A stretch of DNA of 64,000 nucleotides from Hyphomicrobiales bacterium (GTDB taxonomy: Bacteria > Pseudomonadota > Alphaproteobacteria > Rhizobiales > Rhizobiaceae): the NCBI GenBank assembly GCA_900469955.1, contig UBYX01000014.1, positions 1-64,000 on the forward strand. Direction: 5' to 3'. The notes beneath the pieces were generated by a model. That model was not told the origin of the DNA and did no database searches. It saw nothing but the letters and a program-made list of their open reading frames with translations. A program made the position numbers and the translations under genes. This document shows positions 30,188-52,316 of this stretch, one piece after another. Within the stretch, counting starts at the first letter, position 1. Each line of letters starts with the position of its first letter.

Positions 30188-30309
30188 TTTCAAATTCCAT
30201 CTGGCGTCGTTAGCGTCAATATGCAATATTCAGGAAAATATACAATATGCAAGTTAAATTTGGCCTGGAATTTTGCGTGGAAGCCGGGCGCCTGGTGGGA
30301 GGAGAGGAA
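30188..30309. promoter_or_regulatory. Divergent control region with repeated CAATATGCAA
   Basis: The sequence CAATATGCAA occurs twice in the same orientation, at 30217-30226 and 30243-30252, 26 bases apart. The stretch between is AT-rich in an otherwise GC-rich window. It lies between the GntR gene and the UPF0261 gene and is the best candidate binding region for the GntR protein. Confidence 0.5.
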
Positions 30310-31506
30310 ATGGGCAAAGTCTATGTCGTCGGCACCTGCGACACGAAAAGCGCCGAACTGAATTATGCGAAGGACGCGGTGCTGGCTGCCGGAGCAGAAG
30401 CGCTCCTGATCGACGTCGGCACGCAAGGCCGTGACGAAAAGGCGGATTTCACGGCTGAAGAGATAGCTGCCTTCCACCCGCAAGGCGTCTCCGCCGTGCT
30501 CGGCCTCGGCGATCGCGGCGCCGCCGTTTCCGCCATGGGGTTGGCGCTTACGCATTTCCTGGCGTCCCGCAGCGATATCGGCGCCGTGCTGGGCCTTGGC
30601 GGCACGGGCAATACGGCGCTCGTTACGCAAGCGATGCGATCGCTATCGATCGGCATTCCGAAACTGATGGTATCCACCGTCGCCTCGGGAAATACTGCCG
30701 CTTATATCGGTCCGAGCGATCTCACCATGATGTATTCCGTCGTCGATGTCGCCGGGTTGAACGCCATTTCCCGCAAGGTTATCGGCAATGCGGCGCATGC
30801 GGCGGCGGGCATGGCGCAAAATGGTGTACCGGACGTGGCGACCGATAGGCCCGGTCTCGGAATAACCATGTTCGGCGTCACGACCGCCTGTGTCGCAAAG
30901 GTGCGCGCCCTGATGGAGCCGACACATGAAATCTACGTCTTCCACGCCACCGGTGTCGGCGGTCGTTCGATGGAAAAGCTTGCCGACTCGGGACTGGTGG
31001 AGGGCCTCATCGACGTGACCACCACGGAGGTCCCGGACCTTCTAGTCGGCGGGGTCTTCCCGGCGACGGAAGACAGGTTCGGCGCGATCATCCGCACACG
31101 CCTGCCCTATGTCGGTTCGGTGGGTGCCGTCGACATGGTCAATTTCGGCGCCAGGGAGACTGTTCCGCCGGAATTCCGCAACAGGCGGCTGCATGTGCAC
31201 AATGCCCAGGTGACGCTGATGCGCACCACACCGGAAGAAAACCGCGCGGTCGGCCGTTTCATGGTCGAGCGCCTGAACCGGATGGATGGACCGGTGCGTT
31301 TCTTTCTTCCGCTCGGCGGGGTCTCCGCGATCGACGCGCCCGGCCTGCCCTTTTACGACCCGGAGGCGGATGCCGCGGTATTCGATGCCATCCGGTCGGG
31401 TTGGAAAAGCGCCCCAAACCGCAAGCTCATCGAGATCGACGCACACATCAACGATCAGGACTTCGCGAGCGCACTCGTCGAGGCTTATTACACCATTTCC
31501 AAGTGA
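30310..31506 (+). CDS. Tm-1-like ATP-binding domain protein (UPF0261)
   Basis: A 398-residue UPF0261 protein, homologous to the N-terminal domain of the tomato antiviral protein Tm-1. Recognisable segments are [14 protein letters not shown] at the start, [42 protein letters not shown] and the C-terminal [18 protein letters not shown]. The ATG at 30310 follows GGGAGGAGAGG, so the 21-codon longer reading is rejected. The next gene, ten bases on, is homologous to the C-terminal half of Tm-1, so both products probably form one complex. The biochemical role in bacteria is not established. Confidence 0.9.
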
Positions 31507-31516
31507 GGCCAACAAA

Positions 31517-32350
31517 ATGAACAGACCGACACGGCAGGAGATCCTTTCCCGGCTGAGACACAAGATTGCATCCGGCCTGCCGATCATCGGTGGCGGGGCT
31601 GGTACCGGCCTGTCCGCGAAATGCGAGGAGGCTGGCGGCATCGACCTGATCGTCATCTACAATTCCGGGCGCTATCGCATGGCAGGCCGCGGCTCGCTCG
31701 CGGGGCTGCTGGCCTATGGCAACGCCAATGAGATCGTCAAGGAGATGGCCCGGGAAGTCTTGCCGATGGTCCGGCATACGCCGGTACTTGCCGGCGTCAA
31801 TGGAACCGACCCGTTCATGCTGGCGGATCACTTTCTCGACGAACTCAGGATGTTGGGTTTTGCCGGCATTCAGAATTTTCCAACCGTCGGCCTGATCGAC
31901 GGTATGTTCCGCGCCAACCTGGAAGAAACCGGGATGGGCTTTGGCCACGAGGTCGAGATCATCGCACGGGCGCACGCCAAGGACATGCTGACGACGCCTT
32001 ATGTCTTCAGCAGCGAAGATGCACGCGCGATGGCGCAAGCAGGGGCCGATATTGTCGTATGTCACCTGGGGCTGACCACGGGAGGCGCGATCGGCGCGCA
32101 AACCGCGCTCACTCTCGACCAATGCATCGAACGGATCGATTCTTGGTCGGAAGCGGCCCGCTCAGTAAGAAAGGACGTGATCGTCCTGTGCCACGGAGGG
32201 CCCATCGCCCTGCCGGAAGATGCCCAATACATCCTGAGCCGCACCAGGGGCTGCGACGGATTTTATGGCGCGAGTTCGATGGAACGTCTCCCGACGGAGA
32301 TTGCCATCGCCGACCAGATCAAGCGGTTCACGGCGATTGCTCTGGAGTAG
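31517..32350 (+). CDS. TIM-barrel protein, phosphoenolpyruvate hydrolase-like family
   Basis: A 277-residue barrel protein of the family annotated as phosphoenolpyruvate hydrolase-like, matching the C-terminal domain of plant Tm-1. Motifs are [21 protein letters not shown] at the N-terminus, [36 protein letters not shown] and [12 protein letters not shown] near the end. It begins ten bases after the UPF0261 stop and shares its operon. The family's enzymatic activity is not well demonstrated; a carbon-carbon or phosphoester reaction on a small acid is an inference from the fold. Confidence 0.88.
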
Positions 32351-36273: not shown

Positions 36274-37002
36274 TCAGATGTCGAAGTTGGTCGGCAACAC
36301 AACGACATCGCGAATGGTGACATTTCGGGGCCTCGTCAGCATGAAGACGATGGCATCAGCCACCTCCGACGGCTCGATAAGGCTTCCGGATTCCTTCGCC
36401 TTTTTGAGATTTTCCTCGGGCCAGTCGGCAAGGAGCGCGCTGATCACCGGCCCGGGCGAAACCGAGCCCACGCGGATGCCCTTCTTGTTGACCTGGCGCC
36501 GCACGGTCTGGACGAAGCAGGTCATGGCCCATTTCGAGGCCGAATAGACGGGCTCCCAAGGGACGGGATAGTGCCCCGCGACTGAACTGGTAACGATAAT
36601 GTCGCCTGAGCCGCGCGCGATCATGTGCGGCAGGACATCGTGGACGTTCTTGATGACGGCGTTGACGTTGAGGTTGAGCATCCGGTCAATGACAGTGGCA
36701 TCGGCCTCGACCAGGTCGCCCCCGATATAGGTGCCCGCATTGGCATGGAAGATGTCGAGCTGGCCGGTGAGCTTTTCGATCGAGGGCATGAGTGTCGCGC
36801 AGCTCACGGGATCGAGGAGGTCGATCACCAGCGGGATGGCAGCGCCGCCGAGTTCAGCGCAGACCGAGTCCAAAGCCTTGCGATCGCGATCGACGAGCAC
36901 GACGCGTGCGCCCTCTGCAATCAACGCCCGTGTGCTTGCCAGTCCTATGCCGGAAGCCGCACCGGTAACCGCCGCGACCTTACCTACCAAATGCTTGCCC
37001 AT
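36274..37002 (-). CDS. rbtD: Ribitol 2-dehydrogenase-like SDR
   Basis: A 242-residue SDR very close in pattern to Klebsiella ribitol 2-dehydrogenase, which oxidises ribitol to D-ribulose with NAD. Shared stretches include GKVAAVTGAASGIGLA near the start, QLDIFHANAGTYIGG, WEPVYSASKWA (Tyr and Lys of the active site), GIRVGSVSPGPV and the C-terminal RNVTIRDVVVLPT. The ATG at 37002 has GAGGAG six bases upstream; two earlier in-frame starts are less likely. It is the last gene of the 11-gene polyol operon and follows the PfkB kinase gene by 45 bases. Confidence 0.88.
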   Translation of the reverse strand: MGKHLVGKVAAVTGAASGIGLASTRALIAEGARVVLVDRDRKALDSVCAELGGAAIPLVIDLLDPVSCATLMPSIEKLTGQLDIFHANAGTYIGGDLVEADATVIDRMLNLNVNAVIKNVHDVLPHMIARGSGDIIVTSSVAGHYPVPWEPVYSASKWAMTCFVQTVRRQVNKKGIRVGSVSPGPVISALLADWPEENLKKAKESGSLIEPSEVADAIVFMLTRPRNVTIRDVVVLPTNFDI

Positions 37003-37047
37003 ATTCATCTCCTCTGTGTCCATGAAAATCCCCTAGCGACCCCAGCC

Positions 37048-38064
37048 TCAGCGGCTGCCCCATTGGCGTGCAATCTCGATGCATTCCCTCCAGGCGACGA
37101 CGCCATCCGTCGTGCCGGCACTCCTGAGCGAGCAGGCGGCCGCGGCATGGCCGAGCCAAAGACAGTCCTTGATCGCCCAGTCTTCGTGCAGGCCGTACAT
37201 GAAGCCGGCTGCGAAAGCGTCACCCGCACCGTTTGGCCCCACAATCGCATCATGAGGCACCCTCACGGATGGCACGAAAATCGTCTCTCCCGATCGCATG
37301 ACCGTGATCGCGCCCTCGGGGAAATGGATCGTGACAAGCCGCATCTCACCCTGCTCCAGCATGGTCGCAGAGGCCGCCAAACAGGCGTCAACGTCGGTAT
37401 TGCCGTCTTTAATGGTCGTCATCTCCGCCAACGCACCAATCTCACTATCGTTGACAATGAGGGTGTCGAGATGCGGCAGGCAGGGGAGGATGAGGCCGCG
37501 CAGACGTTCCGGCGTGACAGTGCAAAGTTCCAGATTGGTCTGCAATCCTGCCTGCCGCGCCGCCTTGAGGACCGTGACCCAGCCGTTGGCATCGTCCTGC
37601 CATTTTGAATCCATACGCGGGTGGATGCCCGGCAGGCCGAGATGCATGTAGCGCGCTGACGTTGCCGAGAAGTTGAAATGTTGGGGGTTCAGCAGCGCCG
37701 ATATGCCGAGATCCGAAATATGCGTGCGCAGGCCACTTGCCTGCGAGATGAAGGCCTCTGTCGTATGCGTCGGCGCTTCATCGCTGACATGCATCTGTCG
37801 GTGATCGAGGCCCGCCTTCTTGGCTTCGGCGACGAGCTTCCGGCCCGCATCATCATTGCCGACGAGGCCGATGGTCTCGACCGGAATGGAGGGGTCGAGC
37901 CGCCTGATATCGATGGCGAGGTTGCAGGCCGGCCCTCCCCCGCGCTCCTCGAGCCCCCAGGCGATGCCGACGCTATCTTCCCTGGGCCAGGCATCGATCC
38001 TGCGGTTGCGGTCGAGGCACCATGTCCCTCCGGCGATGAAGCCGCGCCTGCTCTTTCCGGCCAT
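37048..38064 (-). CDS. PfkB-family carbohydrate kinase
   Basis: A 338-residue ribokinase/PfkB sugar kinase. The N-terminal GGTWCLDRN and GGGPACNLAIDIRRL and the C-terminal catalytic motif GPNGAGDAFAAGF (about residue 275, with the catalytic Asp) are intact. A GAGGGGAG ribosome binding site precedes the ATG at 38064. It lies directly between an aldolase-like gene and ribitol dehydrogenase, so it probably phosphorylates the ketose made by one of the operon's dehydrogenases (ribulose, xylulose, tagatose or similar). It is distinct from the second PfkB kinase at 50065. Confidence 0.88.
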   Translation of the reverse strand: MAGKSRRGFIAGGTWCLDRNRRIDAWPREDSVGIAWGLEERGGGPACNLAIDIRRLDPSIPVETIGLVGNDDAGRKLVAEAKKAGLDHRQMHVSDEAPTHTTEAFISQASGLRTHISDLGISALLNPQHFNFSATSARYMHLGLPGIHPRMDSKWQDDANGWVTVLKAARQAGLQTNLELCTVTPERLRGLILPCLPHLDTLIVNDSEIGALAEMTTIKDGNTDVDACLAASATMLEQGEMRLVTIHFPEGAITVMRSGETIFVPSVRVPHDAIVGPNGAGDAFAAGFMYGLHEDWAIKDCLWLGHAAAACSLRSAGTTDGVVAWRECIEIARQWGSR

Positions 38065-38084
38065 GCTCCCCTCCCTCGCCGATG

Positions 38085-39068
38085 TCAATTCATCAGGACC
38101 TTTTCGGTGACGAGCATATCGTCGGAGAGGGCCCGCATAGGCTTTTGCCCGCCTGCCTGCAACGCACCGTGATAAGCCCTAACCGCCTCCTCTGGACCGA
38201 GATCACCATCTGCCACGGCGCGCATGAACTTCACCATGGCGAGCGGGTCCTCGGCGAGGTTGATCTTGCGACCGAAGAGCGCCACACGGGCACCGTATTT
38301 CTCCGCCTGATGGATGAGTTCGAACGTATCGCGCGCGGTTCCCGCACCGCCGCCCAAAACGCCGACAATCAGGCTCGGGTCGTAGGAGGTGAGCTCCTCC
38401 AGCGCCTTGGGCCCATTGAAAGGGATCTTCAGGAATTGCGGCCGCTGGGCCCGTGTCAGTCCGGCCAGCGCACGGCATATGCAATCATTTACAAAGTGTG
38501 GTTGGAGCTCGGGTGAAATACCGGTATCGACGTTCGGATTGAAGACTTCGAGGAAGTAGTTGAACCCGTTGTCGTCGGCGTCCTCGACAAAATCCAGAAA
38601 GGCGAGCAGCGAATTATAATCGGCGTCGAGATCGTTGTTGAAGGTGATCGAATAGAGGCCGAGATCGGTATGGCGCCGGTTGATCGACAGCGAAGCGGTG
38701 CGATAGGGCCGTGACGGCTGAGTGGCATAGGTCGCACCGCGCCCTACCCAGATATCGGTCGCATCATTGGCCCGGATGGCGGCCTTGACGCTCCTGCCTA
38801 CATAAGCGCCGGCTTCAGTCAGCAATTCGAGATTGGAGGCGGAGGTCAACATGATATCGACGATATCCTGCGCGATCACAGCCTTGATCTGGCCGAGGAA
38901 TTCCGCCCGGGTCCGAAAGCGCGTGTAGGAGCAGTCTTTTTCGAGCTTGGGGCCGCAGGAGGGAATGCTCGGCCCCATGTCGCCATCCTTGGCGTCCGCG
39001 ATTATGAAATCCGTCCGCTTATAGTTGCCGGCCCTGATTCTCGAGATTTTTTCGTCAAAGCGTGTCAT
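38085..39068 (-). CDS. Putative class I aldolase-like TIM-barrel protein
   Basis: A 327-residue protein I cannot assign to a characterised enzyme. Its pattern resembles DeoC/LacD/class I fructose-bisphosphate aldolases: a lysine in FLKIPFNGP (Lys214) positioned like a Schiff-base lysine, a phosphate-binding-like VGVLGGGAGT (235-244) and ALFGRKINLAEDPLAMV (263-279). An N-terminal RAGNYKRTDFIIADAKDGDMG precedes the barrel. The ATG at 39068 is the first that gives this family-like N-terminus. It is 20 bases upstream of the PfkB kinase gene in the same operon, suggesting kinase then aldol cleavage of a ketose phosphate. Confidence 0.7.
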   Translation of the reverse strand: MTRFDEKISRIRAGNYKRTDFIIADAKDGDMGPSIPSCGPKLEKDCSYTRFRTRAEFLGQIKAVIAQDIVDIMLTSASNLELLTEAGAYVGRSVKAAIRANDATDIWVGRGATYATQPSRPYRTASLSINRRHTDLGLYSITFNNDLDADYNSLLAFLDFVEDADDNGFNYFLEVFNPNVDTGISPELQPHFVNDCICRALAGLTRAQRPQFLKIPFNGPKALEELTSYDPSLIVGVLGGGAGTARDTFELIHQAEKYGARVALFGRKINLAEDPLAMVKFMRAVADGDLGPEEAVRAYHGALQAGGQKPMRALSDDMLVTEKVLMN

Positions 39069-39151: not shown

Positions 39152-39877
39152 TCAGGCAATCATGTAACCGCCATCCACTGGCATCGACAGGCCGTTGACC
39201 ATTGCGGCCTCGTCGGAGAGCAGGAAAAGGATGACCTCGGCAATATCGTCGGGATCTGCGAAGCGGCCGACCGGAATGCGGTTGAGCATACCAGCCGCCT
39301 TTTCCGGATCGCTCCAGGCCTTCACGGCCATGGGCGTGAGGGTCACGGTCGGATGCACACCGTTGACCCGAATGCCTCTGGGCGCAAGTTCCTTGGCCAT
39401 CACCCTCGTCAGCCCGTCGAGACCCGACTTCGACGCGCAATATGCGGCATGGTCGGGAATACCGACAAAGGCCGCGACGCTGGAGACATTCACGATCGCG
39501 CCCTTCCGACCGTTCCTCACCATGTCACGAGCATATTCCTGCGAGACGATCATCGGAGCGCGTGTATTGACCGCATAAAGCAGGTCGAAGTTTTCGACTG
39601 TGACGTCCAGGAAGGACTGTAGCTCCGTCGTGCCGGCGCAGTTCACCAGGAGATCGGCCGGCAGGGCCCGGAGCGCTGCCGCACGCGTCGCCTCGGGATC
39701 GGCGAGATCGACCGCGATCGGAATACATCCGATTTCCTTCTTCAGTTCCTCAAGGTCGGTCGCCGAGCGCGACAGAGCGGTCACCTTGGCTCCGCGCCGC
39801 GCCAGCATGACGGCGGTCGCCCGTCCGATGCCCTTGCCGGCACCCGTCACGATCACATGCTTGCCTGTAAAATCCAT
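39152..39877 (-). CDS. L-xylulose reductase (DCXR)-like SDR
   Basis: A 241-residue SDR closely resembling animal dicarbonyl/L-xylulose reductase, which interconverts L-xylulose and xylitol with NADP(H). TGAGKGIG is at 11-18, NCAG at 79-82, Ser132, Tyr146 and Lys150 form the active site, and the later WSDPEKAAGMLNRIPVGRFA and LLSDEAAMVNG match the reductase pattern. It begins 12 bases after the upstream SDR gene's stop. It likely oxidises a pentitol or hexitol, or reduces the matching ketose, within the polyol operon. Confidence 0.87.
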   Translation of the reverse strand: MDFTGKHVIVTGAGKGIGRATAVMLARRGAKVTALSRSATDLEELKKEIGCIPIAVDLADPEATRAAALRALPADLLVNCAGTTELQSFLDVTVENFDLLYAVNTRAPMIVSQEYARDMVRNGRKGAIVNVSSVAAFVGIPDHAAYCASKSGLDGLTRVMAKELAPRGIRVNGVHPTVTLTPMAVKAWSDPEKAAGMLNRIPVGRFADPDDIAEVILFLLSDEAAMVNGLSMPVDGGYMIA

Positions 39878-39889
39878 TTAAAGACCTCC

Positions 39890-40660
39890 CTACCAGCAGG
39901 TGAAACCGGCATCGGCCTTGACGGTCGCACCGGTGATCAGGCTCGACGCGTCGCAGGCGAGAAAATGCACGACCGACGCAATTTCGTGCGGCTGGCCCAT
40001 CCGACCCATTGGCGTGTCACGTATCCACACATCCACCATCGACTGATCGACGATATTCCTCGTCATTTCGGTCTCTATATAGGTCGGTGCGACGGCGTTG
40101 ACGCGCACTCCGCGGCTCGCCCATTCTGCCGCAAGCGAGGCGGTCAAATGGTGCACGGCCGCCTTTGACGCGTTGTAGTAGCTCTGCAACTGCGGACGAT
40201 TGACGATGTAGCCGGACATCGATCCGATATTGACGATCGCACCTCTGCCGGCCTTCAGCATGTAGCGGCCGAAGGCGCGATTGCACCAGAAGACGCCGTT
40301 GTAGTTCACATCGTTGACATTGAGCCAGAGTTCGTCCGACGTCTCCTCCGCGGCCGTACCGGTGCGGGCAATGCCTGCATTAGCAACCAGCGCGTCGATG
40401 CGACCGTGCTTTGCGAAGATCTCGGCTGCGGCCTTATCGACTGCCGCGGAATCCGTAACATCAAGGACCAAAGCATCGACGTCGATCCCCTTGTCGGCCA
40501 GGGCCAACCTGCCCGATTCGGCAACCGCTTCGTCGCGATCGATGATGACAACGCTGTTGCCCGCCTCGGCAAGCGCTTCGGCGCAGGCAAGGCCGATGCC
40601 ACGCCCGCCGCCGGTCACCACAGCGATCTGGCCGTCCATCCGGAATTTATCGAAGAACAT
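39890..40660 (-). CDS. Galactitol dehydrogenase-like SDR
   Basis: A 256-residue SDR similar in pattern to Rhodobacter galactitol dehydrogenase, which oxidises galactitol and other polyols to ketoses. Diagnostic stretches are NIGSMSGYIVNRPQ (144-157), the Tyr162-x3-Lys166 pair, EWASRGVRVNAVAP and a C-terminal DAGFTCW that corresponds to DGGYTVW in the Rhodobacter enzyme. The DxDxD/IIDRDE region suggests preference for NAD. It lies between the transporter ATPase gene and the L-xylulose reductase-like gene, giving the operon two adjacent polyol SDRs of different subfamilies. Confidence 0.87.
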   Translation of the reverse strand: MFFDKFRMDGQIAVVTGGGRGIGLACAEALAEAGNSVVIIDRDEAVAESGRLALADKGIDVDALVLDVTDSAAVDKAAAEIFAKHGRIDALVANAGIARTGTAAEETSDELWLNVNDVNYNGVFWCNRAFGRYMLKAGRGAIVNIGSMSGYIVNRPQLQSYYNASKAAVHHLTASLAAEWASRGVRVNAVAPTYIETEMTRNIVDQSMVDVWIRDTPMGRMGQPHEIASVVHFLACDASSLITGATVKADAGFTCW

Positions 40661-40684: not shown

Positions 40685-41746
40685 CTATAGGCGCCGACCG
40701 CTCCTGGCCTCGAAGAGATGCGCACGGTACGGGTCGATCCGGAACGAGATGGTATCGCCCGGCGTCACCGCGACGCGGTCGCGGACCGCCGCCATGACCG
40801 GGTCGCCGCCGAGATGCGCAAAGATCTGCGTTTCCGAGCCGGTGGGCTCCAGGACCGAGATCCTCGCAGACAACCCGTCCGGCCGCACGTCGATATGCTC
40901 GGGACGGATGCCGTAGATGACAGGTTCGCCGTGGTCCGGTGTACCTTCCGGCACCGGAAGCACGGTGCCCTTGTCGCTGACGAAGTTCACCTGGCCGCTT
41001 GCCATCGACAGTCTGCCGGGGACGAAATTCATCGATGGCGAACCGATAAAACCTGCCACGAAGACATTTGCCGGCCGGTCGTAAAGATCGAGAGGCGCGC
41101 CTATCTGCTCCACACGCCCGTCGCGCATCACGACGATCTTGTCAGCCATCGTCATGGCCTCGATCTGATCATGCGTCACGTAGATGGTGGTCGTCTTCAA
41201 CCGCTGATGCAGTTCCTTGATCTCGACGCGCATGGTCACGCGCAGCTTGGCGTCCAGATTGGAGAGCGGCTCGTCGAACAGGAAGACCTGCGGATCGCGG
41301 ACAATGGCGCGTCCCATGGCGACACGCTGGCGCTGGCCGCCCGAGAGCTGCTTGGGATAGCGATCGAGCAGCTTGCCGAGATCGAGGATATCGGCCGCCT
41401 TGCGTACCTTGGCCTCGATCTCGCTCCTCGGCGCCCCTTTGAGCTTGAGCGGAAACCCCATATTGTCGGCGACCGTTTTGTGCGGGTAGAGCGCGTAGTT
41501 CTGAAACACCATGGCAATGTCACGGTCCTTGGGCAGGACGTCGTTGACCACGCGTCCGCCGATCGCAACCGTGCCGCCCGAGATCGTCTCGAGCCCTGCG
41601 ATCATCCGCAGCAGCGTGGACTTGCCGCATCCGGACGGTCCGACCAACACGACGAATTCGCCGTCGGCGATATCTATGCCGACCCCGTGGATGACCGGCA
41701 GCGCACCATATTTCTTTGTAACGTCCGTGACGGTGACGTGAGCCAT
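40685..41746 (-). CDS. Polyol/sugar ABC transporter ATP-binding protein (UgpC/SmoK type)
   Basis: A 353-residue CUT1 ATPase: Walker [10 protein letters not shown] near residue 36, [17 protein letters not shown], Walker B VFLFDEP and a C-terminal regulatory domain with [11 protein letters not shown]. The ATG at 41746 gives the standard N-terminus (MAHVTVTDVTKKYGALP); longer readings do not. It sits downstream of the Zn-dependent dehydrogenase, away from its permeases, an arrangement also seen in sorbitol/mannitol (smo) operons. Confidence 0.94.
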   Translation of the reverse strand: MAHVTVTDVTKKYGALPVIHGVGIDIADGEFVVLVGPSGCGKSTLLRMIAGLETISGGTVAIGGRVVNDVLPKDRDIAMVFQNYALYPHKTVADNMGFPLKLKGAPRSEIEAKVRKAADILDLGKLLDRYPKQLSGGQRQRVAMGRAIVRDPQVFLFDEPLSNLDAKLRVTMRVEIKELHQRLKTTTIYVTHDQIEAMTMADKIVVMRDGRVEQIGAPLDLYDRPANVFVAGFIGSPSMNFVPGRLSMASGQVNFVSDKGTVLPVPEGTPDHGEPVIYGIRPEHIDVRPDGLSARISVLEPTGSETQIFAHLGGDPVMAAVRDRVAVTPGDTISFRIDPYRAHLFEARSGRRL

Positions 41747-41756
41747 ATGAATTCCT

Positions 41757-42800
41757 CTATTGCGGCAGTGCGATCTGCATCTTGACTTCGCCCTTGGGGG
41801 AGGACGCGGCGATCTCGAAAGCACGGACGCTTTCGTCAAAGCCGAAAGTGCGGGTGATGAGCGGCTTTACGTCAATCGCGCCGGAAGAGAGCATGGCCAC
41901 GCAACGCGGAAAGACATGGGCATAGCGGAAAACATGCTCCACGCGGGCCTCGCGCACCATGGCCTTGCCGACATCGTATTGGATCGGGTGGACCTGAGAA
42001 CCGATGAAAACCACCCGGCCGCCCGGAGCGAGCGGATCGAACACACCTTCGGCGCCCTTGGGATGGCCGGAGCATTCGAACACAAGTTCGACGCCCCAGC
42101 CGTCGGTGGCGGCGAGGATCTCCTTGACCAGTTCCTGCCTTGCAACATTGATTGGCGAGATTGGACCAAGCTTGGCGGCGAGTTCCAGCTTGGCATCGTC
42201 GACATCGCTCACGAACACCCGCGCACAGCCGGCGGCGACAGCCGACAGCGCGGTCACCAAGCCGATCGGGCCTGCACCGATCACCAGAGCTATGTCACCA
42301 GGCTTGACCTGCGCCTTGGTCGCAGCATGCACTCCCACCGCCAGTGGCTCCACCATTGCTGCTTCGGCGAACGAGACATTATCGGGCAGCTTGAAGGTGA
42401 AGTCGGCGGGATGAACGACGGTTGGCCTGAGCACGCCGTGGATGGGCGGCGTGGCCCAGAAGCGAACCGCAGGATCGACATTGTAGAGCCCCATGCGGGT
42501 CGCGCGGCTGTTGGGATCGGGGATCCCTGGCTCCATGCAGACGCGATCGCCCACCCTTAGCGCCGTGACGTCGGTTCCCGTCTCGATCACGGTGCCCGAC
42601 GCCTCGTGGCCAAGGATCATCGGCGCTTTCACCTGGAACACACCGGTGCCGCCATGCGTATAATAATGTACGTCGGACCCGCATATGCCCACGGTGTGGA
42701 GCTTTATCCGCACGTCGCGCGGACCCAGCGTCTCTTCGCGCTCGATCGGGAAATCGCGCAGCGACAGTTTCAACTTCTCTTCCAATACCAGCGATTTCAT
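41757..42800 (-). CDS. Zinc-type polyol dehydrogenase (xylitol/altritol dehydrogenase-like)
   Basis: A 347-residue medium-chain dehydrogenase of the sorbitol/xylitol dehydrogenase group. Catalytic zinc ligands are Cys40 ([10 protein letters not shown]), His65-Glu66 (GHEASG) and Glu151; the NAD motif GAGPIG is at 175-180. The four-cysteine structural zinc loop is absent, replaced by [15 protein letters not shown], as in several bacterial xylitol dehydrogenases. A PF00107 enzyme in a similar Agrobacterium C58 cluster was reported to oxidise D-altritol to D-tagatose, so altritol, xylitol or sorbitol are all candidates here. Confidence 0.88.
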
Positions 42801-43064: not shown

Positions 43065-43901
43065 CTACTCCTTGACTGCGCCGAAGGTGAGACCCGCCAC
43101 GATATGGCGCTGTACCACGGCGAAGATGATGAGGGCGGGGATGAGGGTGATCATCGCGATCGCCGCCATCGCCCCCCATTCGGTACCCGTCGTCGTCACA
43201 TATTCCGAGAGGCCCGTTGTGATGGTGCGGGCGTTGAAGCTGGTCAGGGTCGCAGCCAGCAGAAACTCGTTCCAGGCAAAGACCCAGGTGAGGATCAGCG
43301 TCACCGCAAGACCGGGCCGTGCAAGCGGGAAGATGACCTCGGAGATAACCTGCCAGGTCGAGGCGCCGTCGACCGTTGCTGCCTCGTCAAGTTCCTTGGG
43401 AATTCCGTCAATGGTCGGCCGCAAAGTCCAGATCGCGAAAGGCAGGTTGAAGGTGCAATAAAGCAGGATCATGCCAATCTTGGTGTCGTAGAGTTTCCAG
43501 TCGCCAAAGGTGAAGACCTGGGTGAACAGCAGGTAGAACGGCAGCAGGAACACCGCGGCCGGGGCCATGCGGTTGGTGATCGTCCAGAAAAAGATATTCT
43601 CCTTGCCCGCAAGATCGAAACGGGACAGCGCGTAGCAGGCCAGGAAAGCCAGTCCGGTGACCAGGAAGGCATTGCTGGTAGAAATGATCAGAGAGTTGAT
43701 CATATAGCCGCGCAGCGTCTCGTTGCCGATGACGTTGACGTAGTTCTTCCAGTAGACCGTATCGAGGATCACGCTGGGCGTCGTGAACAGATCCACAGCC
43801 GGCTTCACCGAAATGACGAAGAGCCAATAGATCGGGAAAAGCGTCAGCAAGCTCAGCAAGAGCCAAAGTGCCAGGTACAAGAGCGGATTGCGGCTCTGCA
43901 T
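43065..43901 (-). CDS. Polyol ABC transporter permease (MalG type)
   Basis: A 278-residue CUT1 permease beginning MQSRNPLLYLALWLLL at 43901, where its ATG shares a base with the stop of the partner permease (TGATG). The coupling loop is PKELDEAATVDGASTWQVISEVIFPL and the C-terminus HIVAGLTFGAVKE is typical. Longer in-frame readings are rejected because they run back through the partner gene. Confidence 0.93.
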   Translation of the reverse strand: MQSRNPLLYLALWLLLSLLTLFPIYWLFVISVKPAVDLFTTPSVILDTVYWKNYVNVIGNETLRGYMINSLIISTSNAFLVTGLAFLACYALSRFDLAGKENIFFWTITNRMAPAAVFLLPFYLLFTQVFTFGDWKLYDTKIGMILLYCTFNLPFAIWTLRPTIDGIPKELDEAATVDGASTWQVISEVIFPLARPGLAVTLILTWVFAWNEFLLAATLTSFNARTITTGLSEYVTTTGTEWGAMAAIAMITLIPALIIFAVVQRHIVAGLTFGAVKE

Positions 43902-44782
43902 CAAAACGTCCTCTTCCGTTCGCGTCGGGCCACAAGTGCGACATAGAGCAGCCAGCACATCACGAGGGTGAGGTAGAGCACGATCACCGAGATCGCGGCA
44001 CCGTAGCCGTAGTCGGTCTTCGGAAAGACGATCTTCCAGATATGCAGCCCAACAAAACGGGTGGCAGCACCCGGGCCGCCGGAGGTCAGCATCCAAACTT
44101 CGTCCACGGTGCGCAACGCGTCCATAAGGCGAATGAAGACCGTTGCAAGAATTGCCGGGCGGATCATCGGCAGCGTAACGTGCCAGAAGATCTGACGGCG
44201 GTTGGCGCCATCGATCTGCGCCTGTTCGAACGGCTCTTTCGGGAGGGCAAGAAGTGCCGCAAGCAGTGTCAGCGTCACCAATGGCGTCCAGTGCCAGATG
44301 TCCATGATGACCGTCAAAGCGAAGGCGGCGGTGGCGTCACGGCCGATGTTGAGATCATAGCCGAACCAGCTTTTCAGAAGATAGGGGATTATACCGATGC
44401 TGGGAGTCGTCATCAGCCGCCAGACCGAGCCGACGACGATAGGCGCGACGATCAGCGGCAGCGTGTGAATTGTTCTGAAGAAACCTCGTCCGGGAAACTC
44501 CTTCATGAAGAGCTGCGCGAGCAGATAGCCCAACGCAATCTCGCTCAGGACAGCGAAGAAGGCGAACTTCATCGTGAAGGCGATGGAGGTCAGGAACTCG
44601 GTATCGAAGACGAGACGGCGGAAGTTGTTGGCACCGTTATAGATCATGTCCGGGCTGGCGCCGAACGGGTTCCATTGATGGAATGACACGTAAAGCACAT
44701 AGATGAACGGGATGATGCCGAAGATGCCGAGGATCGCGATCGTCGGGGCGAGCATCAGCCAGCCGACAGTATTTGGACGCAT
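43901..44782 (-). CDS. Polyol ABC transporter permease (MalF type)
   Basis: A 293-residue CUT1 permease starting MRPNTVGWLMLAPTIAIL at 44782, nine bases after GGGAG. The coupling loop is PKEPFEQAQIDGANRRQIFWHVTLPM. It is separated from the binding protein gene by 105 bases containing a 15-bp stem-loop, the largest hairpin I found in this window. Confidence 0.93.
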   Translation of the reverse strand: MRPNTVGWLMLAPTIAILGIFGIIPFIYVLYVSFHQWNPFGASPDMIYNGANNFRRLVFDTEFLTSIAFTMKFAFFAVLSEIALGYLLAQLFMKEFPGRGFFRTIHTLPLIVAPIVVGSVWRLMTTPSIGIIPYLLKSWFGYDLNIGRDATAAFALTVIMDIWHWTPLVTLTLLAALLALPKEPFEQAQIDGANRRQIFWHVTLPMIRPAILATVFIRLMDALRTVDEVWMLTSGGPGAATRFVGLHIWKIVFPKTDYGYGAAISVIVLYLTLVMCWLLYVALVARRERKRTF

Positions 44783-44831
44783 GAATTGGTGCTCCCGAAG
44801 GTGCAGGTCAACGGCCTGCAAAATCCGACAA

Positions 44832-44887: not shown

Positions 44888-46321
44888 TTATTTGCGGTAG
44901 CCGAGGTTTTTCAGCTCTGCTTCGGCCGCCGCCGCCATCTGGTCGAGGCCTTCGTCGGGGCCGACTTCACCAAGTAGGATCTTGTAAAAGATCGGCGTCG
45001 TTGCTTCACGCACCTGCGCATGGAACGGGAAAGGCGGCGCACCCGCAAACAGCTTTCCCTGATCTTTGAGCATGGTGTAGTAGCCATTCAGCTTCTTATC
45101 CATGGCAACGACCTTGGGGTCATCATAGGTTGCGGTATTGGTGATGCGGGGTGCCGCGACCGCCCAGTCGGGCTGGACCGAGTCCTGGCCGATGAACTGC
45201 AGGAAGAGCAGTGCCGCCTGTTTGTTCTTCGATGTGACCGGCAAGCCGAAGGCGCCGCCGTCATAGTAGCCGAGATAGCCCTTGCCGGCCTCGACCTCCT
45301 TGAGAACATCGGGCTCGGTGGGCGGCAACGCCACACCGACTTTACCGACCACCTTGGACTTTTCCGCATCCGACGCGATCCAGGCAGCGTTCTCACCATA
45401 AACCAGGCCCTGCGCGACGCGGCCGGCGGCAAATGTCGTACCGACTTCCGTCCAGGTCGAAGCGGCGGATTCAGGCGGAGCGATGTCTCGCAGATGCAGC
45501 CAGTATTTCATGGCGGCCTTGGCCTTGTCACTGTTCATCTGACCGCCATTGGCGACCGATGCGGCAAAGTTGTTTTTGGCGTCGATACCCCAATTGTAGA
45601 GGCCGTATGTGGGCGCGATCGACTCGAAGAATTCGTACCAGGAGGCCGGGTGACCGGTATGGGCCTGGGCGGTTGTCCCCCAGAGCTCGGTCCCATTATC
45701 CTTGCCATATTTCGTGAAGAATTCGGCAATCTGCGTGTATTCCTGATGCGTCTTGGCCGGAGCCAACTCCTTGCCCGTCTCCTTCTTGAAGGCTTCCTTG
45801 ATCTTCGGGTCGCTGAAGAGATCCGTGCGATAGAGATAGACCTTTATGAAAGCTTCCATCGGGATGCCGAAAAGGTCGCCGGAGGCATTCTTGAAGTAAT
45901 TGGCGAAAGTCGTGAAATGAGTTTCGTTGAATTCCGGCGCCTTCAGGGACGGATCGTCCTTCAGCGACTTCGAGATGTCGACCAGGAAGTTGCGCGCCAG
46001 ATAGGCGTAGATGATGTCCTGCTCGATATAGACCATGTCATAGATGCCGGTCTTGGCCTCCATGTCCTTGATGGCCTTGTCATACATCTGGTCCCAAGAC
46101 GTCGTCTCGATCTGGACCTTGATGCCGGTCTTCTTCTCGAATTCCGGCGCCAGCACGTCCTTGATATAATTGGACGGTGGAGTGCTTTCGGTCACGCCCC
46201 GCAGGACCACGCCCTTGTATTTCGCGCCGGCATCGGACCAAAAATCGGCCTGTGCGGGCATTACGCCAGCAAGAAGACTTAGCGCAAGCGCGGCAATTCC
46301 AATTCCACTTTTCTTGATCAT
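44888..46321 (-). CDS. Polyol/sugar ABC transporter substrate-binding protein
   Basis: A 477-residue family 1 binding protein with a Sec signal ([25 protein letters not shown]) and mature start [12 protein letters not shown]. Motifs [22 protein letters not shown] and [18 protein letters not shown] resemble the sorbitol/mannitol-type binding proteins. GGAGG lies four bases before the ATG at 46321. It is the first gene of the 11-gene operon reaching to 36274. A related binding protein was the starting point for the discovery of altritol/galactitol catabolism in Agrobacterium, so a hexitol ligand is likely. Confidence 0.92.
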
Positions 46322-46557: not shown

Positions 46558-47511
46558 CTATACTTTTTCGCCGGCCGCCATGCCGGTGGAATAGCCACGG
46601 ATGTCCCGAAAGGGATCGCTTCGCGCCTTCGTTCCGATCTTGTGCGCATTGCGCCGGTAATCGGTGGGCGTGCGCCCGCAGATTTTGAAAAACTGTCTGT
46701 TGAAATTAGCGATATTGTTGAACCCGACTTCGAAGCAGATCTCGGTGATCGGACGATAGGTCTGGGTGAGCAGCGAGCAGGCCGCATAGATGCGCGCAAG
46801 AATCACGTAACGCGCGAAAGTGTGACCGGTGTGACGCTTGAAAAAGCGCGAAAAGGCTTGCGGCTCAAGGCCGCAGATCTTTGCGACCGAGGCCAGATTG
46901 ATATCGTCGCTATAGTGCTCCAGCACATAGCGCATGGCGACGTCCAGCTCATGCGGCAGTTCCATCTCAGCGGAGGGTGGCGCAAGGCGCGACAACCTGC
47001 GTCGATCGGCTGGATCACGCGCCAGGGCAATCATCAGCTGCAGGAAGAGCAACACGCGCTCGGCGCCATGGGCCGAACCCATCTGCGCCAGCAGCCGCCG
47101 GCCTGCAAGCGCCGTTGCGCCAAAAAATTGCACGCCGTAGACGGCATCCTCATAAAGCGGCTTTATTGTGCCGAGCTCGGGACAAAAAGAGGCCACGCGA
47201 TCGGCCCATTCAGGGGTAAACTGGATCAGCATGTCACGATTGCGGATCAGTTTGCCGGGCTCGATATCGCTCACCCAATTGTGCGGCACATTCGGTCCGG
47301 TCAGCACCAGGCAGCCTGGCTCGAATTCGCCGATATAGTCACCCACCATCATGACGCCGGTAGTCGCACGGGTGAGGTGCAGTTCGTATTCTGGATGATA
47401 GTGCCACTTCGCCCGGAAGAAGGGATAATCATGCATGTTCCAGCGAAAGGATTCTGCTGGCGGGCAGATGATCATTTCGAAATCGGGTACGATCCGCAAA
47501 TCGGCTTTCAT
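46558..47511 (-). CDS. AraC-family transcriptional regulator
   Basis: A 317-residue regulator. The N-terminal half contains an AraC-type cupin-like sensing domain (WHYHPEYELHLTRATTGVMMVGDYIG), and the C-terminal half has two helix-turn-helix units (INLASVAKICGLEPQAFSRFFKRHTG and ITEICFEVGFNNIANFNRQFFK). GGGAGGAGG precedes the ATG at 47511. It is encoded immediately upstream of, and in line with, the polyol operon and divergent from the epimerase/ROK/kinase genes, so it is the natural activator of the locus. Confidence 0.92.
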   Translation of the reverse strand: MKADLRIVPDFEMIICPPAESFRWNMHDYPFFRAKWHYHPEYELHLTRATTGVMMVGDYIGEFEPGCLVLTGPNVPHNWVSDIEPGKLIRNRDMLIQFTPEWADRVASFCPELGTIKPLYEDAVYGVQFFGATALAGRRLLAQMGSAHGAERVLLFLQLMIALARDPADRRRLSRLAPPSAEMELPHELDVAMRYVLEHYSDDINLASVAKICGLEPQAFSRFFKRHTGHTFARYVILARIYAACSLLTQTYRPITEICFEVGFNNIANFNRQFFKICGRTPTDYRRNAHKIGTKARSDPFRDIRGYSTGMAAGEKV

Positions 47512-47680
47512 GGAAATAACCTCCTCCCGACATGCAGGCCGTGACCCCTCAGGCCACCACGCCGGCACGCGCACCAGAGAGCTGTTCGTGTGGTCGGGTT
47601 CCCTTAGCTAGCTGTAGCTCAAGCGAGCGAGCCCCTTAGTTCACGTGCGCCCGCCTTCCGTTGGCGCCGTCTCCGCCTTA

Positions 47681-47913: not shown

Positions 47914-48798
47914 ATGAGCCGGTTAGGTATTCATTCTTTCGTGTGGACGGGCGGACAAACGCAATCCATGCTTGAGGAAGCGATGGAAAAATCCGCCTCC
48001 TGTGGTTACAACCTGATTGAATTTGCCTATCTGCGACCGGAAAAATTCGATCTCGACGCCCTCGCCAAGCGGGCGACGGCGCTAAAGCTCGATATCGCCG
48101 TCACCATGGGCCTTCCCTTCAGCCACGACGTGTCGAGCGACGATGCGCAGACGGTAAAAGCAGGCGAAGACATGCTAGCCGACGCCGTTCGCGCCGTCCG
48201 TGACATAGGCGGGAGCAAGCTTGGCGGCATCCTCTATTCCGCTCACTCGAAATATGCCCGGATGCCCACTAAAACTGGATGGGACAACAGCGTTGCGGCC
48301 ATTGCCAAGACGGCTGACCTTGCCCAGTCTGCAGGCATCGACCTCGTTCTCGAGGTGGTGAACCGTTTCGAGACCAATCTTCTCAACACCACCGCCCAAG
48401 GCCTCGCCTTCATAAAGCAAGTAGGTTCCGAGCATGTGCGACTGCACCTCGACACCTTTCACATGAACATCGAGGAGGCAAATCCGGCGGCGGCCATCCG
48501 GCTTGCGGGTGACAAGATCGGATATTTCCATATCGGCGAAAGCAACCGCGGCTATCTTGGCGACGGCGTCATCAATTTTGATCTGATATTCGACGCGTTG
48601 CTTGATATCGACTACCAGCGCGATATCACGTTCGAATCCTTCTCAGGCGCCGTTGTCGATGAAGGTTTGTCGCTTGCCTGCGCAATATGGCGCGACACCT
48701 GGACCGAGAATATGCCGCTCGCGCAGCACGCAAAACAATTCATCGACCTCAGGATGGACGAGGCGAAACGCCGGCGTGCCACCGTTGCGCGGCCGTGA
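47914..48798 (+). CDS. Ketose 3-epimerase (D-tagatose/D-psicose 3-epimerase family)
   Basis: A 294-residue sugar phosphate isomerase/epimerase-fold enzyme. The metal ligands Glu147 (LEVVN), Asp180 (HLDTFHMN), His206 (FHIGESNRG) and Glu241 (TFESFSG) are present and each sits five residues before the corresponding ligand of Pseudomonas cichorii D-tagatose 3-epimerase. It should invert C3 of free ketoses, for example D-tagatose/D-sorbose, D-fructose/D-psicose or ribulose/xylulose. AGGGGAAG precedes the ATG. It heads the plus-strand set with the ROK regulator, tagatose-type kinase and GatZ-like protein, so it could funnel rare ketoses to the kinase. Confidence 0.9.
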   Translation: MSRLGIHSFVWTGGQTQSMLEEAMEKSASCGYNLIEFAYLRPEKFDLDALAKRATALKLDIAVTMGLPFSHDVSSDDAQTVKAGEDMLADAVRAVRDIGGSKLGGILYSAHSKYARMPTKTGWDNSVAAIAKTADLAQSAGIDLVLEVVNRFETNLLNTTAQGLAFIKQVGSEHVRLHLDTFHMNIEEANPAAAIRLAGDKIGYFHIGESNRGYLGDGVINFDLIFDALLDIDYQRDITFESFSGAVVDEGLSLACAIWRDTWTENMPLAQHAKQFIDLRMDEAKRRRATVARP

Positions 48799-48874: not shown

Positions 48875-50068
48875 GTGAATGAAGTGGGTCCAATCGCATC
48901 TCCAAGCGGGATCCGCCAGCGCAATGAGCTCGCGGCGATGCGAGCGCTTTATCGTCACGGCCGCCTGAGCAGGGCGGAGCTTGCGCGCATTTTAGGCCTC
49001 AATCGCTCCTCGTCCGGCCATATCATCGCCGCTCTCACTGCCGATGGCCTCGTCCGCGAGGTGGGAACTGCCGAGCAGGCGCAGACTACTCACGCGGGTC
49101 GGCCGGGCATCATGCTCGAACTTACCTCCGGAGCCGCCTTTTTTCTCGGCATCGAGATCGGCGTTGAACACATCACGGTGGTCGAGGTCGATCTCGCCTG
49201 CCGCATTGTCAACAACCGCACGGAGCCCTTCGACGGCCCTTCTGTCGATGTCGAAACTGCAGTTTCACGCGCGATCGCGCTTGCCTTCGACACATTGCCG
49301 CCCGCGCACCGCAGTCGCTGCGAAGGGCTGGGGGTCGCCGTGCCGGCGCAAATGGACCGCCAGGGGCTGATCAATATAGCCCCCCTGCTCGGATGGCAGA
49401 ACATTCAGCTCGCCGACCTTGTGCGTGCGGCCGTGCCGGCACAAATGCCGGTCATGGTCGAGAATGACGCAAACGCGTTCGCGACCGGCGCTAGCTACGG
49501 TGCTCGCGAGGCCCATTCGGGGGTTACACTCTATCTCGTCATGGAGAGCGGCGTGGGCGGCGGCATTGTCGTTGATGGGACCGTTTTTAAAGGCGCGCGG
49601 GGGCTTGCCGGCGAGATCGGGCATTTGCGCGTCAATGGCTCCGACGGCCCCGACCGCAGCCTTGAAAGTGTTCTCGGGCTGGAATGTATCCTGCGCGCCT
49701 ATCGCGCGGTTTCAACGCAATCGGAACCGAACTTCGCGACTTTTCTGGCTGATGTACGCGACCGCGTTCCGGGCCCCGTCGCCATTGCGGAAGACTGGGC
49801 GCGCACTTTGGCTTATGGCCTCATCCAGGCCGGAAGGGTCATCGATGCCGATAGGGTCGTGCTGGGCGGTTCGGTCGCCGCACTCTATCCACTGATGGCG
49901 GCGCGCGTCCTGCATCACATTCGCTCCATGCAGGAGGAGAGCTTTCCGTTGCCTGTGATCGAAACGAACGACGATGAGACTGTGGGGCCGGCCTTCGGCG
50001 CTGCGTGCATGCTTCACCAACGCTATCTCTTGACCGACAGCTCGCGCCTTGCCGAGGATGCTGCATGA
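48875..50068 (+). CDS. ROK-family transcriptional regulator
   Basis: A 397-residue protein with an N-terminal winged helix ([29 protein letters not shown]) and a ROK sugar kinase-like domain ([57 protein letters not shown]). The GTG at 48875 follows GGAGG by seven bases and gives the right N-terminus. The cysteine-rich zinc loop (CxCGxxGC) common in ROK proteins is missing, replaced by [16 protein letters not shown]. Its stop overlaps the kinase start (ATGA), so it is co-expressed with the pathway and probably responds to its sugar as a repressor. Confidence 0.9.
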
Positions 50069-51048
50069 CACGAACCGGGCTTGCCCTCGACACCCTCGGA
50101 CCGACGATAACGATCGGCGAGATCCTCGTCGAGATCATGGCCGTGGACCGCGGCACGGGCTTCCTGGAACCGATCACGCTCATTGGCCCCTATCCTAGCG
50201 GAGCGCCTGCCATCTTCATAGACCAATGTGCCAGGATCGGAGGGGCGGCCGGCATCATCGCCTGCGTGGGCGACGACGATTTCGGCCGGGTCAATGTCGC
50301 GCGGCTCCGCGCGGACGGCACCGATGTCTCGGCCATCTCGACTGACCCGGACTTTCCGACCGGCAGCGCCTTCGTGCGATATCGAAATGACGGCTCGCGC
50401 GATTTCGTCTTCAACATTGCAAAATCCGCCGCCGCGAAGATCGATCTTACCTCTGCGGGGCGTGCACTGATTGATCGGTCGGGCCATCTGCATGTCATGG
50501 GAACCGCCTTTGCGATACCTGGCGCTGCCGAGATCATCCAGCACGCGATCGCGGTGATCAGAGAGCGCGGCGGGACTATCTCCTTCGATCCGAATGTCCG
50601 TAAGGAGTTGCTGGGCGATGCAGAAACTCGGGCACGTTTCGCCAGGCTCGTCGATATCGCCGACCTGATCCTCCCCTCGGGAGAAGAGCTGTTCGTCGCC
50701 GCGGGCGTTGAGGACGAAGGCGAGGCGATCCGCGCATTGCTCGGCCGTAACGCCAAAGAAGTGGCGCTCAAGCGCGGCGCGGGCGGCTCCACCGTCTTCA
50801 CCCGCGAAGGCAGACGTATCGACTGCCCGGCCTTCTATGTCGAGGAAGTCGATCCGACCGGCGCGGGCGACTGCTTTGGTGGCGCCTATGTGGCCTGCCG
50901 CCGGCTCGGCATGCCGATCGAGCAGGCACTCCTCTATGCCAACGCCGCCGGCGCCCGCAATGTGACGGTCAGGGGGCCGATGGAGGGCGCGGGCACTCTG
51001 GCTGAGCTCGACGCTTTCATCGCCACGACGCCGGCACGCAGGTCATGA
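50065..51048 (+). CDS. PfkB-family tagatose kinase-like sugar kinase
   Basis: A 327-residue ribokinase-family enzyme. The N-terminal [11 protein letters not shown] and [20 protein letters not shown] and the C-terminal [14 protein letters not shown] (catalytic Asp near residue 270) are intact. In the reported Agrobacterium pathway a PF00294 kinase phosphorylates D-tagatose to D-tagatose 6-phosphate and a PF08013 protein uses that product; here the downstream overlapping gene is PF08013-type, so the same reaction is likely. Both ends overlap neighbours through ATGA junctions. Confidence 0.88.
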
Positions 51049-52316
51049 TATCTGTTCTTCACAACCTGGCCCGCAGCCGACGCTTGGGCGGCCCCGCGGG
51101 CATCACTTCCGTGTGCTCGGCTCATCCGATCGTGATCCGCGCTGCCCTTCGACATGCGGTTGGCCGCGACGGCCCGGTGTTGATCGAGGCAACCTGCAAC
51201 CAGGTCAACCAGTTCGGCGGATACACCGGGCTGAAGCCCGGTGACTTTGTGGCACTGGTGGAACAGATCGCCAGCGAGGAGGGCCTGCCCTGGGAGAAGG
51301 TCATCCTCGGAGGCGATCATCTTGGGCCAAATCCATGGCGTGGTGAAGCCGCCCAGGTCGCGATGGCGAAGGCGGAAGACATGATCGCCGCCTATGTCGA
51401 AGCCGGCTTCCGCAAGCTCCATCTCGATACCTCTATGGGTTGCGCGGGCGAACCGACGGCGCTCGACGATACCATGACCGCCGGGCGCGCGGTAAGGCTG
51501 GCAGCTGTGGCGGAACGGTGCGCGACCTCGGCGAATAGTAAGCCGGTCTACGTGATCGGCACCGAAGTTCCGCCCCCCGGCGGTGCCCATCACGTTATCA
51601 CCGCGCTCGAACCTACCGGCGTCGAAGCAGCGCGAAAGACAATTGCACTACACCGGACGCGGTTTGAGGAAGCGGGCCTCGGCGAAGCCTTCGGCCGGGT
51701 GCTGGCGCTCGTGGTTCAGCCCGGAGTGGAATTCGGCAATGAAAATGTCATCGTGTACGACCGGGCCAAGGCGCGATCCCTTGCGGCGCTGCTCGAAGAG
51801 GAACCAGCAATCGTCTATGAGGCCCATTCGACTGACTACCAGGGCGCGGATGCGCTTCGTGAACTCTCCGAGGACGGGTTCGCCATCCTCAAAGTCGGGC
51901 CGGAATTGACCTTCGCGCTCCGCGAGGCGCTCTACGGCCTCGATCTGATCGCCAGCGACTCCGTGGCCGGCTATCCCAGCCGAAACCTCATGGCCGTGAT
52001 GGAGGCGCTGATGAGGGAGTATCCCGGCCACTGGGCTGGTCACTACTCCGGCTCGGAGGCCGAGCAGCATATCCTGCGCCACTATTCCTATTCGGATCGT
52101 ATTCGCTATTACTGGAACCACCCTGCGGCGGAAGCTGCCGTCTTGCGGCTTACGGAAGTGCTCGACAGCAGAATCATCCCCGCACCTCTTTTCCGACAGC
52201 ATCTGCCCCGTTCGGCAAGGTATGCCGGAACCCCGCTCAATCCGCAGGAATTGCTGATTGACGCCGTGCGGGCCGTCCTCGACGAATACCAGAGCGCCCA
52301 CGAGCGCCGCCGATAA
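51045..52316 (+). CDS. GatZ/KbaZ-family protein, probable D-tagatose-6-phosphate 4-epimerase
   Basis: A 423-residue PF08013 protein. Family signatures are [39 protein letters not shown] and [12 protein letters not shown]. The name GatZ comes from enteric bacteria, where it accompanies a tagatose bisphosphate aldolase; a member from Agrobacterium C58 was shown to epimerise tagatose 6-phosphate to fructose 6-phosphate. No GatY-type aldolase is in this window, which favours the epimerase role. It overlaps the kinase stop and ends the plus-strand operon. Confidence 0.88.

Follow-up and report, generated by a model that had tools for sequence, protein, structure and literature searches.

We propose that a minus-strand operon of ten genes for polyol uptake, found in a 64,000-nucleotide stretch of the genome of a soil bacterium of the Hyphomicrobiales (assembly GCA_900469955.1, contig UBYX01000014.1, positions 1 to 64,000; hereafter the window), encodes a route that probably runs from a polyol to a ketose, from there to a ketose 1-phosphate and finally to dihydroxyacetone phosphate and an aldehyde, the last step being catalysed by an unnamed family of class I (Schiff-base) aldolases. 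The candidate aldolase, a protein of 327 residues, is encoded by the eighth gene of the operon and a PfkB kinase by the ninth. What we computed for this proposal are the fold of the protein, the position and conservation of its Lys214, its phosphate-site motifs, the structure of the operon and the kinases that accompany the family as a whole. A wider reading, which we hold tentatively as a serious possibility, is that this family, for which Pfam has no entry, acts on one or several ketose 1-phosphates and so accounts for a cleavage step of polyol catabolism that has yet to be described. The accompanying kinase would have been exchanged between four unrelated families, one of them the ADP-dependent glucokinase/phosphofructokinase family, whose bacterial members would here act outside glycolysis.

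Both genes of the pair are real and lie on the minus strand (Table 1), with the spacing, lysine and glycine motifs that the first-pass annotation had given them. Exactly 20 bases separate the stop codon of the aldolase-like gene from the start of the kinase gene, and within this gap a strong Shine-Dalgarno sequence (gagggaggggagc) precedes the kinase ATG. The aldolase-like protein carries K214 within the segment FLKIPFNGP and also contains the segment VGVLGGGAGT. Its relatives align over the full length with identities from 98% (the protein of Neorhizobium alkalisoli, a match that makes Neorhizobium the probable source genus) down to 47%, keeping the start, K214 and the reading frame, and because of this conservation, together with the presence of a PfkB gene beside it at 56 of 90 related loci, a chance open reading frame is ruled out. 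The aldolase-like gene occurs once in the source genome. Scans for promoters and terminators at the locus returned matches at chance level only.

The operon starts with a solute-binding protein and continues with two permeases, a zinc polyol dehydrogenase, an ABC ATPase, two short-chain dehydrogenases, the aldolase, the kinase and a third short-chain dehydrogenase. This order is conserved across eight related genomes, some of them with one gene cut off or unlabelled, and is also kept in Rhizobium gallicum. The polyol oxidation that had been postulated from the sequence is supported here, in that polyol dehydrogenases sit in the same operon as the kinase and the aldolase-like gene; the gene following the kinase, which had been called a ribitol dehydrogenase, turned out to be a short-chain dehydrogenase without a curated assignment of that kind. 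For the solute-binding protein, no close solved relative was found.

Table 1. Coordinates in the window of the polyol-uptake operon, its regulator and genes of the opposite strand.
Feature	Position	Strand	Remarks
AraC-family regulator	46558..47574	-	upstream of operon; position kept in relatives
ABC solute-binding protein	44888..46321	-	first gene of the conserved operon
ABC sugar permease	43901..44821	-	operon member
ABC sugar permease	43065..43904	-	operon member
Zinc-dependent sorbitol-dehydrogenase-family polyol dehydrogenase	41757..42800	-	sorbitol dehydrogenase relative
ABC transporter ATPase (UgpC type)	40685..41746	-	operon member
Short-chain polyol dehydrogenase	39890..40660	-	best solved relatives: polyol dehydrogenase 3awd, galactitol dehydrogenase 2wdz/2wsb
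Short-chain dehydrogenase, xylitol/L-xylulose type	39152..39877	-	resembles mammalian L-xylulose reductase
Aldolase-like (beta/alpha)8 protein, 327 aa	38085..39068	-	candidate Schiff-base lysine K214, from fold and alignment
PfkB-family sugar kinase, 338 aa	37048..38064	-	NGAGD catalytic motif at residues 278-282
Short-chain dehydrogenase	36274..37023	-	last operon gene, after the kinase
Ketose 3-epimerase-like protein	47914..48798	+	best model D-psicose 3-epimerase, below cut-off
Tagatose kinase	50068..51048	+	NCBIfam NF049991, 546 bits (cut-off 420)
GatZ/AgaZ family protein	51045..52316	+	TIGR02810, 579 bits (cut-off 569)

The separate tagatose 6-phosphate route that had been read on the other strand was confirmed, as the models for tagatose kinase and GatZ both score above their cut-offs, and the whole divergent group, made up of the epimerase-like protein, a ROK regulator, the tagatose kinase and GatZ, is likewise kept beside the operon in R. 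gallicum. Elsewhere on the plus strand of the window (30247-32350), the gene for a UPF0261 protein precedes one for a TIM-barrel protein resembling PEP hydrolase (PF09370).

By sequence, the 327-residue protein stands apart from named families. Pfam returned nothing for it at E values up to 1, the DeoC/LacD family PF01791 included, nor any credible match for any of 19 diverse relatives. The NCBIfam matches were all below threshold and confined to the C-terminal part; they came from the models for LsrF, ADH synthase and archaeal FBP aldolase and went as far as E 2e-9 in a single relative. The LsrF thiolase model NF006081 reached 20.9 bits against a curated cut-off of 297. The similarity in sequence to known aldolases is weak and limited to the C-terminal third, and a direct sequence search of the PDB retrieved LsrF alone (E 0.04-0.2). 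Aligned as single sequences with hhalign, YihT matched the family profile with a probability of 0.1 and FbaB gave nothing usable. Relatives checked in annotated plasmid records are labelled 'hypothetical protein', no characterised enzyme of the family was found in the resources searched, and the literature search returned no paper on it; one paper on riboflavin featuring a class I aldolase proved unrelated.

The predicted structure resembles those of Schiff-base aldolases and their relatives. An AlphaFold model built from 56 sequences showed a full (beta/alpha)8 barrel (pLDDT 92.7, pTM 0.91), whose strands were assigned by DSSP to residues 22-27, 72-75, 95-99, 136-142, 170-176, 213-216, 235-238 and 262-265. 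In this model Lys214 lies on strand 6, D25 and K27 on strand 1 and E174 on strand 5, while a GG pair directly follows strand 7 and a GR pair strand 8. No substitution of K214, D25, K27 or E174 occurs in either alignment, that of 19 diverse or that of 56 closer sequences, and R99, N101, W107, R110 and the phosphate site formed by G239-G240 and G266-R267 are further invariant positions of the family. Foldseek returned LsrF, ADH synthase, archaeal class I FBP aldolase, Cgl0159 and LacD as the best PDB matches, each with a probability of 1.00 and with TM-scores of about 0.6; most of them work through a Schiff base and act on a dihydroxyacetone-phosphate half. A profile-profile alignment against 37 LsrF-type sequences (probability 94.7, E 6e-8) put K214 on K203 of LsrF and the two glycine motifs in register with its GG and GR motifs. 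Judging by the strand assignment and this alignment, Lys214 would be buried in the barrel.

These results bear on several earlier proposals. The class I aldolase-type barrel with a candidate Schiff-base lysine stands, given the predicted fold and the alignment of Lys214 with the Schiff-base lysine of LsrF. The comparison of a predicted structure with DeoC, LacD and class I FBP aldolases, which the first-pass annotation had recommended, gave the barrel with Lys214 on strand 6 and listed LacD and FBP aldolase among the fold matches, but the nearest solved folds were those of LsrF, archaeal FBP aldolase and ADH synthase and not that of DeoC, whose Pfam model gave no match either. The VGVLGGGAGT segment, described before as phosphate-loop-like, matches the strand-7/strand-8 phosphate site of barrel aldolases but is no NTPase P-loop. 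Strands 3 and 4 are separated by a large insert (residues 100-135) that is strongly conserved, with R99, N101, W107 and R110 invariant; no solved relative explains this insert, which is possibly a substrate lid.

The partner of this protein belongs to the PfkB (ribokinase) family (PF00294, 122 bits with a cut-off of 25.8), with an invariant NGAGD catalytic motif; its model (pLDDT 94.0) had ribokinases as best fold matches, with sulfofructose kinase YihV also listed, and none of the curated NCBIfam kinase models reached its cut-off. Some kinase open reading frames extend to about 700 aa; rather than being fusions, these seem to be frames that stay open beyond the gene in GC-rich DNA.

For 84 of 90 relatives, a sugar kinase gene adjoins the aldolase-like gene or belongs to its run of genes. 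The 90 loci were picked by similarity and are mutually related, so that all counts given here are of non-independent samples. The 56 PfkB partners are nearly always on the same strand, 0-40 bases away. At 21 of the 90 loci there is instead a nearby gene of the ADP-dependent glucokinase/phosphofructokinase family (PF04587), at six an FGGY kinase accompanied by a GlpD-like FAD oxidase (at four of these, the pair belongs to the same gene run but stands several genes further upstream, beyond the 3.5 kb limit of our script, and was counted by hand) and at one a DhaK/DhaL pair, while no kinase was found at the remaining six. Partner type tracks the tree and yet switches repeatedly, with 11 changes for the five labels compared with a mean of 31 after shuffling. 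In qualitative terms, the kinase family changes and the active-site residues do not.

Several of these loci have features of their own. Alphaproteobacterial PF04587 members occur at about 21 loci (among them L038:8349-9605, L035:8077-9336 and L095:999-2243), often with a polyol-type short-chain dehydrogenase. On a Lichenicola cladoniae plasmid (L036:9992-12700), DhaK and DhaL come directly after the aldolase relative, with a SorC-like sugar-binding regulator on the opposite strand, and on plasmid pVNTG1 of Vibrio nigripulchritudo (L034:7378-12571) the relative lies beside a GlpD-like oxidase, an FGGY kinase and an aldehyde dehydrogenase. In Pararhizobium polonicum (L055), a ribose-type transporter and the aldolase stand back to back with a polyol transporter operon of the window type; an AraC regulator follows the aldolase and no kinase was found nearby.

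The kinase family alone cannot fix which carbon is phosphorylated, but the rarer partners are informative. A GlpD-type oxidase that acts on a polyol 1-phosphate would yield a ketose 1-phosphate, and a DhaK-type kinase would phosphorylate the carbon adjacent to a ketone, so that the FGGY/GlpD and DhaK/DhaL loci point to a ketose 1-phosphate as the substrate of the aldolase. From these partners and the closest folds we infer that the kinase acts at C1 and that the aldolase releases dihydroxyacetone phosphate. If the kinase acted instead at the distal end of the ketose (C5 or C6), the aldolase would yield free dihydroxyacetone and an aldose phosphate such as glyceraldehyde 3-phosphate. This would be compatible with the occurrence of both C1 and terminal kinases among PfkB members, with the plus-strand tagatose kinase, itself a PfkB protein feeding a tagatose 6-phosphate route, and with DeoC-type barrels, which bind a far-end phosphate through similar loops; the Lichenicola DhaK/DhaL pair could then rescue the free dihydroxyacetone. 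We consider this unlikely, as the GlpD-like oxidase at six loci fits a ketose 1-phosphate and the closest folds (LsrF, FBP aldolase, ADH synthase and LacD) bind a dihydroxyacetone-phosphate half.

According to the route through ketose 1-phosphate, the operon would import a polyol, one of its polyol dehydrogenases would oxidise it to a ketose, and the PfkB kinase would phosphorylate this ketose, most likely at C1. Lys214 would then form an imine with the ketone of the ketose 1-phosphate, and the chain would be split into dihydroxyacetone phosphate and an aldehyde, which would be glycolaldehyde from a C5 ketose and glyceraldehyde from a C6 ketose. The oxidation and cleavage steps rest on family and fold, and the cleavage itself, its products and the class of substrate are predictions. 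The shared lysine is no guarantee of aldol cleavage, as LsrF, which ranks first by fold and by profile, has thiolase activity. Because LsrF, too, releases dihydroxyacetone phosphate, the protein might be a Schiff-base enzyme acting on a phosphorylated ketose in another way, by LsrF-like acyl transfer or as an isomerase or epimerase. Barrel proteins adjoining sugar kinases can indeed be epimerases, as in the GatZ type (PF08013, with one member on the plus strand here). Nevertheless, neither an LsrG-like partner nor an AI-2 system was seen in the operon and true aldolases make up most of the other close folds, which makes a non-aldolase reaction rather improbable. Finally, that the chemistry is done by a metal or by the strand-1 Lys27, which belongs to an invariant DAKD motif, is very improbable, because Lys203 of LsrF aligns with K214 and not with K27 and no obvious cluster of metal ligands was noticed.

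Strong full-length matches were obtained for 54 of the 397 genomes sampled within the order of the source organism and for 3 of the 398 sampled across the phylum. The GTDB species set, with one genome per species, contains at least 573 related stretches, and copies outside Alphaproteobacteria are rare, the V. nigripulchritudo plasmid being an example. The public databases hold a family of hundreds of proteins without a name or a Pfam entry. If our reading is true, sugar alcohols would reach triose phosphate without tagatose 6-phosphate or pentose phosphate chemistry, and biochemists would gain another aldolase for making carbon-carbon bonds. Because the active site stays constant while its partner kinases are exchanged, the reaction lends itself to a direct test.

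Among known systems, the D-altritol/galactitol pathway of Agrobacterium reportedly comprises a PF00107 dehydrogenase, a tagatose kinase and a PF08013 epimerase. Its parallels in the window are a PF00107 dehydrogenase and, on the plus strand, the tagatose kinase and GatZ; to our knowledge, it includes no member of this aldolase family. LacD, the tagatose 1,6-bisphosphate aldolase, matches in fold, but with 12-15% identity and without a match to its sequence models; its strand-5 acidic residue and strand-1 aspartate appear to correspond to those found here. Archaeal class I FBP aldolase and ADH synthase (DhnA type) share the fold, the strand-6 lysine and the C-terminal similarity, whereas the scores with their family models are far under the cut-offs and the protein described here has E174 on strand 5 and the long conserved insert between strands 3 and 4. 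LsrF, a 3-hydroxy-5-phosphonooxypentane-2,4-dione thiolase whose partner LsrK is an FGGY-family kinase, resembles it in the (beta/alpha)8 fold, the strand-6 lysine K203, the GG and GR phosphate motifs and the association with a kinase, but differs in its thiolase chemistry, in an identity of only 14% in the structural alignment and in the AI-2 genes, none of which were seen in the operon. In the sulfoglycolysis of E. coli, YihV is a PfkB kinase acting at C1 and YihT a class I aldolase; the working logic of a PfkB kinase followed by a Schiff-base aldolase is the same, and YihV is among the fold matches of our kinase, although YihT does not align with this family and no sulfoquinovose genes were seen at the locus. 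The working principle is already known from YihV/YihT and, in part, from LsrK/LsrF, and what is new is the unnamed and widespread aldolase family.
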